NCBI GenBank assembly: GCA_902812465.1
Contig: CADDZE010000019.1
Span: forward strand, 1-64,000
DNA length: 64,000 nt
Source of the DNA: Acidobacteriota bacterium
GTDB taxonomy: Bacteria; Acidobacteriota; Terriglobia; UBA7540
Direction of reading: 5' to 3'
The notes beneath the pieces are model-generated. The model did no database searches. It saw nothing but the letters and a program-made list of their open reading frames with translations, and had not been told where the DNA came from. The position numbers and the translations under genes were made by a program. This document shows positions 22,860 through 24,613 of this stretch, one piece after another. Every line of letters starts with the position of its first letter. The first letter of the stretch is position 1.

Positions 22860-23816
22860 ATGATCCATTCGCGGTCACAATTACGAGACCTTAGCAAGAC
22901 TGCGCCCACCGGCCTTTGGCTTTCCCTCCTGGCGAGTTTGTGTTTGCTTCTCGCTGCCCCGCTCGCTCAAGCACAGCTGGCTCCCAACCAGACTCAGGGC
23001 TTTGGCAACGGCAGGTTGCTCGTCTTCACGTATCAGCAGAACTTTGACTGTGTTGATCAGCCCACGCTTGACCTGGATTTCAACCACGTGAAGGCCGGGT
23101 CAGACCCTAATGAGATGCAGACCCCAATCTGTCAGCCCCTTACTGAACCCACCGAGGATCCGACAGGCAAGGATATCAAGCACACCGCACATCTCTACGT
23201 GCTCATCCCCATGTTCTCGGTGGACAATGACCAAAACCCGAACGACGCTATGCCTTGCCCCAATGGCGGCAGACCCGGCGAACTCTGCGGCCCGCAGCTG
23301 GGCGCCGCGCTCATCAAGCTATTTGGCGCCGTACCCGAAGCCTGGAAGACCAAGGTGAATCCCGCCATTACCACCCAGTGTCCGGACCCCAGCCATCCCG
23401 TCCCCGGTACCTGCACCATGCATGCCTCCTCCGTGGATCTGTCGAAGACGCTGGTGGCGCTGGGAAAGTTAACAACTCCCCCCACCTCTCCGATCTTCGC
23501 GCCAACCCCGAATCATAGCCACGTGGTCGACAACGACCGCCTGAATTCGAAAACTATCTGGTGGGAAGTCCGCCCGGTACTAGTGCTGCAGCAGGGTGAT
23601 TGGCCACCCGCCGACGGAAGCAGCGGCATCAACTCCGTCGAAGCGCTGGACAAGGCAGAGGCTGCCGGCAGGGCGATCGAAGTTGGCTCCAATTTCTTCC
23701 TGTTCTTCAGCTCTAAGCTGGCCGATGACGAGGCGATGATGAAGGACATGCCGTCCATGATGGACCACGGCCACTCCTTGCCCACGGCCGCTTCAGGCGC
23801 GGGCGGGGCGAAGTAA
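22860..23816 (+). CDS. Secreted protein of unknown function with six cysteines
   Basis: 318 residues, not recognised. A clear signal peptide (hydrophobic LSLLASLCLLLAAPL, cleavage likely after AQA at residue 38). The mature part has six cysteines (residues 64, 91, 133, 143, 174, 185) that could form three disulfides, aromatic strands (IWWEVRPVLVLQQGDWP), and a C-terminal stretch rich in Met, Asp and His (EAMMKDMPSMMDHGHS), which might bind metal. It follows the sigma/anti-sigma pair by 227 bases on the same strand, so it may belong to the same stress regulon. Function cannot be assigned. Confidence 0.75.
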   Translation: MIHSRSQLRDLSKTAPTGLWLSLLASLCLLLAAPLAQAQLAPNQTQGFGNGRLLVFTYQQNFDCVDQPTLDLDFNHVKAGSDPNEMQTPICQPLTEPTEDPTGKDIKHTAHLYVLIPMFSVDNDQNPNDAMPCPNGGRPGELCGPQLGAALIKLFGAVPEAWKTKVNPAITTQCPDPSHPVPGTCTMHASSVDLSKTLVALGKLTTPPTSPIFAPTPNHSHVVDNDRLNSKTIWWEVRPVLVLQQGDWPPADGSSGINSVEALDKAEAAGRAIEVGSNFFLFFSSKLADDEAMMKDMPSMMDHGHSLPTAASGAGGAK

Positions 23817-24346
23817 CGGGGCTGTTCGGAAAGCAGCGCCGCACCCGGGCATGCCATTCCTTGACAGCCTCGAGGTATCGGCTGGACACTTGGAGAGGGA
23901 CAAGGAGGTAAAGCGGGTGCATCCAGCCGACCTCGCGGCGTTGCGAGCCGAGCATCGTGGTGGTCTTGTATAAGGGGCCGTGCACGCTTTCGGCCCCCTC
24001 CTCGTTAACTAATTGATAACCACCAGCCTTCGGGTTATCCTGTCCACTAGCCCGGCTGAGTTTTTTCATCCCGACTTGGGCCAAGCTCAGGGCCGCAAAT
24101 GCGAGGCTTCCAGCTATCCTTCCACCATGCTCCAGTTCATGCTACTGGGACCTTTTGGGGAACCGAGGGAGCATTGAGGCGGTATGGGCACCGCCGCCTG
24201 AGGCAGACCGCCTTGATTGTAACTAGCTTATTGATATCAAAATACTTAGATTCGAGTCAGCTGGCTGCCACGCCGACGACACAGTGGGCCGCGCAGCGGG
24301 CTGAGCGGCCGGGCGCTGGTGAGAAAAACCGTGGGTGACAATAAAT

Positions 24347-24495
24347 CCCATTATGTTACTGAAAATAAATGATATGTACGATTTGACCGCGATGAATCCA
24401 ACTATCTTATTGAAAATAAAGGCCAAGTTTGTCTCATTTGTCTCACCTTTTTCGCTTTCATCTGATTAATCTCACTATGTTATTGAAAATAAGTA
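24347..24495 (+). repeat. Array of AT-rich repeats reading Asn-x-x-x-Leu-Leu-Lys
   Basis: Three copies near 24347-24370, 24393-24421 and 24467-24494 share the core ACTATGTTATTGAAAATAA with few changes; the GAAAATA parts begin at 24361, 24412 and 24485, so the spacing is 51 and 73 bases. In one frame the copies translate as NPIMLLKIN, NPTILLKIK and NLTMLLKIS. A further degenerate copy may lie at 24221-24244. Related single copies are at 39531-39559 and 47409-47436. Confidence 0.7.
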
Positions 24496-24613
24496 GAGGC
24501 CCTTGAGGCTGCCACAGCGTCTGAGGGGGCTTGTTTAGAACAGGCAGTCTTGGGTTACAACTGACTAGGTTTCTGCCCTACGCCGGAACTGGGGGAGATC
24601 GGGAGGCATAAAT

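Follow-up and report, generated by a model that had tools for sequence, protein, structure and literature searches.

The window, i.e., the whole 64-kb stretch of acidobacterial DNA analysed here, contains an array of short AT-rich repeats at 24200–24500, and this raises the question whether such an array is a coding remnant, part of a mobile element, the source of a small RNA, or a regulatory DNA element. A repeat search of the window confirmed what the first-pass annotation had described, three clear direct repeats of about 26–29 nt that start at 24340, 24391, and 24464 (start spacing 51 and 73 nt). Identity to the reference copy is 79% for 24340–24368, 100% for 24391–24419, and 86% for 24464–24492; a weak fourth match lies at 24212–24240 (69%). 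The array is far above chance: with up to two mismatches, TTATTGAAAATAA has four matches in the window, three of them in the array, versus 0.20 expected, and four matches were reached in none of 100 shuffles. The array stretch has a GC content of 0.44 compared to about 0.6 around it, and sits in an 860-bp gap with convergent genes on either side:

22860..23816, + strand: upstream neighbour gene, 318 aa, no Pfam family
24212..24245, + strand: left-end module, the position where some sister elements have a TTGAC(A/C)-N17-TA(A)TAT-like sequence
24246..24318, + strand: leader, not conserved in an alignment of the copies in the source genome
24319..24342, + strand: block before unit 1, GTGAGAAAAAYCGKGGGTGACAAT, kept in most copies of the window's unit type (type A) in the alignment
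24340..24368, + strand: unit 1, AATCCCATTATGTTACTGAAAATAA, from the repeat search
24391..24419, + strand: unit 2, from the repeat search
24428..24453, + strand: stretch between units 2 and 3, TTTGTCTCATTTGTCTCACCTTTTTC, conserved in the alignment
24464..24492, + strand: unit 3, its core being exactly ACTATGTTATTGAAAATAA
24676..28155, − strand: convergent neighbour gene, encoding an outer membrane protein that resembles TonB-dependent receptors and has a carboxypeptidase-regulatory-like domain

The left-end module is degenerate in the window copy (TTGATT, good −10 absent), and a consensus promoter scan called no promoter at 24212..24245. The first-pass annotation had listed this place as a doubtful fourth copy. 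It is probably no unit, since a TTGAC-type promoter-like block occupies the same position, about 130–142 nt before unit 1, in 4 of the 10 type A elements that were examined (C14, C22, C57, C60). The element is larger than first described: the repeat array was recognised correctly, while the promoter-like end and the leader beyond it had been missed. Having three good units, a decayed left end and promoter, and an unusual convergent location, the window copy is a poor example of its family. A short repeated motif, TGRGACAAATGRGAC, was seen alongside the arrays in two genera, in opposite orientation to the units. It occurs before unit 1 at loci of genome G037 including L059, L071, and L120, and in the window at 24428–24453 on the opposite strand.

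Copies and anatomy of the element

In the source genome (G000; 3.9 Mb, 190 contigs) the 19-base core ACTATGTTATTGAAAATAA was found at 40 places with up to three mismatches, and at none in the reversed control. The genome scan proposed with the first description thus did reveal further copies. A pattern around GTAACTNNTTGA was discarded as a signal, with 20 matches versus 18 in the reversed control. The array type of the window is present at ten further loci of G000, and other unit types at about a dozen more. Three unit types share the core: type A (...GAATCCCAYTATGTTGTTGAAAATAA), the window type, makes up eleven elements, mostly with three units at 51 and 72–73 nt, type B (GGAACGAAGCCACYAAGTTATTGAAAATAC) is found alone or in loose groups, and type C (AAACGAACCGGATATGTTGTTGAAAATAAAGGATCG) stands alone. 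Contigs C16 and C18 carry a hybrid of two fused units, an expected product of recombination between units. The spacers of type A elements are similar from locus to locus and differ in length, which tends to speak against a CRISPR array, defined by identical repeats, unique spacers of similar length, and cas genes.

Within the order, core AWGTTRTTGAAAAYA occurs in 33 of 40 genomes with up to 54 copies each, while the reversed control gave one match summed over all 40. Among 395 genomes drawn from the whole phylum, G000 alone was high; the others had 0–4 copies, which is the background level, and copies outside the family did not exceed four per genome. Carriage by phages was discarded, as a scan of viral contigs resulted in two single matches, on AT-rich contigs of GC 0.33 and 0.36, neither of them surrounded by an array. 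Literature searches listed no such repeat family for Acidobacteria, a comparison that leaves aside 'Solibacter-1', a motif that the available text of PMC2864571 lists for Solibacter usitatus.

Each genus has its own composite element of about 300–450 bp, often with a sigma-70-like promoter, followed by a non-conserved leader and three to five same-strand units at fixed spacing. A unit consists of a lineage-specific left 'tag' and the common core RTTRTTGAAAAYA. About 28 elements were found in G011, most with five units at 52/41/54/52 nt (several elements have 63 in place of the last 52), a single inverted tag that follows unit 1, and promoters resembling TTGACA-N16-18-TGTGTACTAT. The 34 loci of G037 mostly have three units at 65–66 nt, a repeated CGAACCGGA motif, and the left edge TTGACA-N17-TAGYCT; G002, G010, G016, G027, and G029 have their own versions. 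These data demonstrate that same-strand arrays of fixed geometry are dispersed in the genomes. Unit spacing roughly fits helical turns (R = 0.5 at 10.5 bp, p about 0.02, best near 11.25) with phasing classes chosen by hand, and helical phasing of the units is suggestive only.

Genomic context, coding capacity, and RNA structure

The context analysis comprised 149 loci from eight genomes, 147 of which gave a match; genes were called by a simple rule of length and GC3 and may be wrong at single loci. The elements lie between genes, mostly upstream of the next gene and in the same direction, with 3 of 147 loci inside an ORF. Tandem arrangements were co-directional at 45 loci and counter-directional at 10 (p = 2e-6), 30 loci were divergent and 9, among them the window locus, convergent; at 53 further loci one or both neighbours were unresolved. 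Where known, the downstream gene was co-directional in 96 of 124 loci. A common function of the neighbours was not apparent, with any given Pfam family limited to at most 4 of 92 downstream and at most 4 of 127 other neighbours.

The exception among these diverse neighbours is guaB, which has elements upstream in G000, G011, and G037. In a scan of 30 guaB loci, the 700 bp ahead of the gene contained units on the sense strand in G000, G010, G011, G016, G017, and G037, and single weaker matches were obtained in G033 and G030, so that units precede guaB in sense in at least five genera. Another conserved promoter-like sequence is located between element and guaB, and read-through control is therefore not obvious at this gene. 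In many genomes of the family a promoter-like block that starts with TTGACGCT and ends with TA(G/A)AAT directly adjoins guaB. The guaB gene of G038 is without the G037 element, and the flanks do not align cleanly. Few loci are common to different genera, which implies high turnover.

In one frame the unit reads xATKLLKT or NPTMLLKI, and type B units at L015, L145, and L148 of G000 continue in frame into the next gene, giving the N-termini SHQVIEK and VIENK. Coding remnants or short translated ORFs (the ...LLKI/LLKT frame) could produce such a picture. However, ahead of unit 1 the three frames are open with equal frequency (13, 13, and 12 of 27 G011 elements), stops follow directly, unit bases vary at all codon positions, and few loci are inside ORFs. 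Based on the equal frame openness the coding explanation was rejected; as a general explanation it is largely refuted and we consider it very improbable. The artificial-looking N-termini are probably gene-start artefacts of ORF calling. A continuous conserved protein frame, named by the first-pass annotation as one finding that would speak against its view, gets no support from frames that are all equally open. Its proposal of DNA-level repeats of a non-coding element is supported by this result, by the scarcity of loci inside ORFs, and by the many more copies versus zero in controls.

The array could also act as RNA. A multi-copy small-RNA family would consist of promoter-driven transcripts in which the array provides single-stranded protein-binding motifs, either as a sponge in trans or as a leader RNA in cis. 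Strong promoters (see below), an unconstrained leader, the sense orientation to downstream genes, and type B units in sense between co-directional genes are in agreement with this, as is a conserved repeated motif on a sense strand whose folding does not exceed that of shuffled sequence (three genera, mean z +0.7, −0.2, and +0.4). On the other hand, unit distances are fixed despite largely free spacers, which is more natural for DNA-bound proteins, none of the 13 predicted pairs in 27 G011 elements covaried (alifold), and no Rfam family emerged: there was no gathering-level match for seven loci, and a permissive search of three loci gave two matches, both far below their gathering scores. We regard a small-RNA family as unlikely, and a structured RNA was rejected on the basis of Rfam, alifold, and folding z. 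The units are asymmetric and form no palindromic hairpin, with the exception of unit 1 of G011 with its inverted tag; structure was seen in G011 only, on both strands, and is attributed to this one inverted tag. A hairpin before unit 1, suspected in several genera, was dropped, as the G-rich G011 variants do not form it. Sponge RNAs of the CsrB/RsmZ type carry many copies of a short protein-binding motif on one transcript and are usually encoded by few genes per genome, while the elements described here occupy about 30 loci, keep a fixed unit spacing, and show no conserved fold.

Promoters, constraint, and change of the tags

Promoter statistics with controls were obtained for eight groups, with G002 scanned further upstream as well. 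Of 26 G011 elements, 24 had a strong promoter match ahead of the array; at the highest threshold the number was 20, compared to 0 of 26 in antisense and 0 of 130 in shuffles. In G037 a strong match was present in 26 of 31 elements and, in antisense, in 3 of 31. Enrichment was weak in G000 (6/11 versus 2/11 in antisense and 4/11 downstream), and promoters were less clear in G002 (14/34 versus 5/34, region further upstream). At the level of sequence prediction, this demonstrates element promoters in at least two genera.

Copies were compared within and between species. Among 26 distinct G011 elements (one near-duplicate dropped) leader identity was 0.324 versus 0.322 expected by chance, while tags and cores were 78–95% identical and spacer lengths nearly fixed. 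Comparison of G037 with the sister species G038/G039 gave twelve rows of orthologous sites with matching flanks. In five pairs in which both members had a located promoter, identity was 82–89% for the promoter, 46–82% for the array (only 46% in one of the five), 35–52% for the leader, and 16–41% for the left flank. The orthologous pair L066/L119 does not fit this pattern (promoter identity 29%). Promoter and array are thus under constraint.

The tags change in concert. The motif AACRAAC continues into CC in 40 of 47 cases in G038 and in 1 of 147 in G037, where CG or CT is found in 146 of 147, and this tag change is visible also at orthologous sites. In G002 the tag match is 0.78 within elements versus 0.59 between elements, a value reached in 0 of 2000 permutations. 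This requires that a reader in trans, or else homogenisation, operates across the loci. Concerted tags could result from gene conversion, and copying does happen, as seen from the identical pair L200/L206.

A constrained promoter and fixed multi-site array, a drifting leader, and sites that change together genome-wide point to a co-evolving partner. Our tentative reading, which we hold to be quite possible if not yet probable, is that the dispersed non-coding elements are portable transcription-control cassettes (cis-regulatory), read by a putative co-evolving factor. A putative sequence-specific protein would bind each unit in one orientation, and the bound units would build up a multi-site complex. 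This complex, as an operator or road-block array, would control transcription from the promoter of the element towards the downstream gene. Shifts in the specificity of the protein would drive the coordinated tag change, and copies would arise rarely and then be kept by selection on promoter and array. The binding protein, the control of transcription, and the benefit to the downstream gene are what we infer from sequence comparison.

Copying, known repeat families, and implications

Recent copies were found as pairs. The identity of L200 and L206 is complete over a stretch that begins near the predicted transcription start and extends to the last core, L074 and L125 (G037) show 95% identity over 660 bp, and the G037 copies L059 and L086 share a sharp left edge just before TTGACA. 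Together with dozens of copies in unrelated flanks and the few elements common to different genera, this would be in line with a selfish non-autonomous mobile element (MITE- or REP-like), whose array would be the binding end for a recombinase or transposase that is encoded elsewhere or lost, with the promoter as a passenger and the orientation bias due to selection against antisense read-through. Several findings argue against it and make it, in our view, a somewhat unlikely explanation. At the inspected edges of the three copy pairs neither terminal inverted repeats (by eye) nor target duplications were seen. Y1_Tnp genes do not follow copy number, with 0 genes in G000 (40 core matches), 0 in G011 (48), and 6 in G019 (1 match), and the 25 commonest Pfam families of neighbouring genes do not include a transposase. 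Promoter and array are kept at orthologous sites and the leader is not, from which debris would differ. The RAYT or transposase partner suggested earlier is therefore unsupported, and we rejected the RAYT link since Y1_Tnp is absent from the repeat-rich G000 and G011. Of the 40 genomes of the order, 35 have Y1_Tnp (RAYT-like) genes, with up to 15 each; G000 has none.

RNA-mediated copying was considered for L200/L206, whose identity starts near the predicted transcription start. This idea was abandoned, since in L074/L125 and in a G037 subfamily the shared DNA extends upstream beyond the promoter region. At L074:936–1597 and L125:944–1605 the element is joined to upstream GTAG-type REP-like hairpins (GTAGCGGCGGCTTTACGCCGCC); judged by the sequences, REP-like and array elements are copied together here. 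Several contigs end within a few hundred bases of elements (C27, C52, and C58 of G039; C13, C15, C18, C22, and C28 of G037), suggesting that near-identical longer repeats break the assemblies at these ends.

Correia elements (CREE) are closest in lifestyle, though their defining inverted ends and size are not those of the elements described here. According to the available text of PMC2649163, Neisseria has more than 100 dispersed non-coding copies of CREE, many of them located 5′ of genes; CREE are able to provide sigma-70 promoters as well as a site for binding of the protein IHF, are 69–157 bp long, and are bounded by inverted repeats. Our elements are likewise dispersed, non-coding, located 5′ of genes, and promoter-bearing (G011, G037; weakly G000, G002), but show no inverted ends, span 300–450 bp, and have three to five same-strand units with lineage-specific tags. 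MITEs of bacteria, as portrayed in the accessible part of PMC2229807, are multi-copy, short, and intergenic and may carry promoters or binding sites. All this applies here as well; unlike in MITEs, no terminal inverted repeats or target duplications were seen, and promoter and array are kept at orthologous sites. Flanking repeats are mentioned for acidobacterial Y1 transposases in the part of PMC3733652 available. Clusters of short intergenic units are shared with REP/BIME sequences and their RAYTs, but the units studied here are AT-rich, asymmetric, and non-palindromic, and G000 and G011 have no Y1 transposase.

Most described bacterial intergenic repeats are palindromes or transposon debris. 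It is conceivable, though on balance doubtful, that a single family-specific factor, acting in trans and binding DNA or RNA, recognises promoter-driven arrays of asymmetric units, about 30 per genome at unrelated loci, and that its changing specificity rewrites the tags genome-wide, so that sister species would have different 'alphabets' at orthologous sites; this would be a bacterial control system not described before. The elements may also explain the recurring odd tails (LLKT, VIEN) in adjoining predicted proteins. They would further allow the joint shift in specificity of a regulator and dozens of sites to be studied as a natural experiment.
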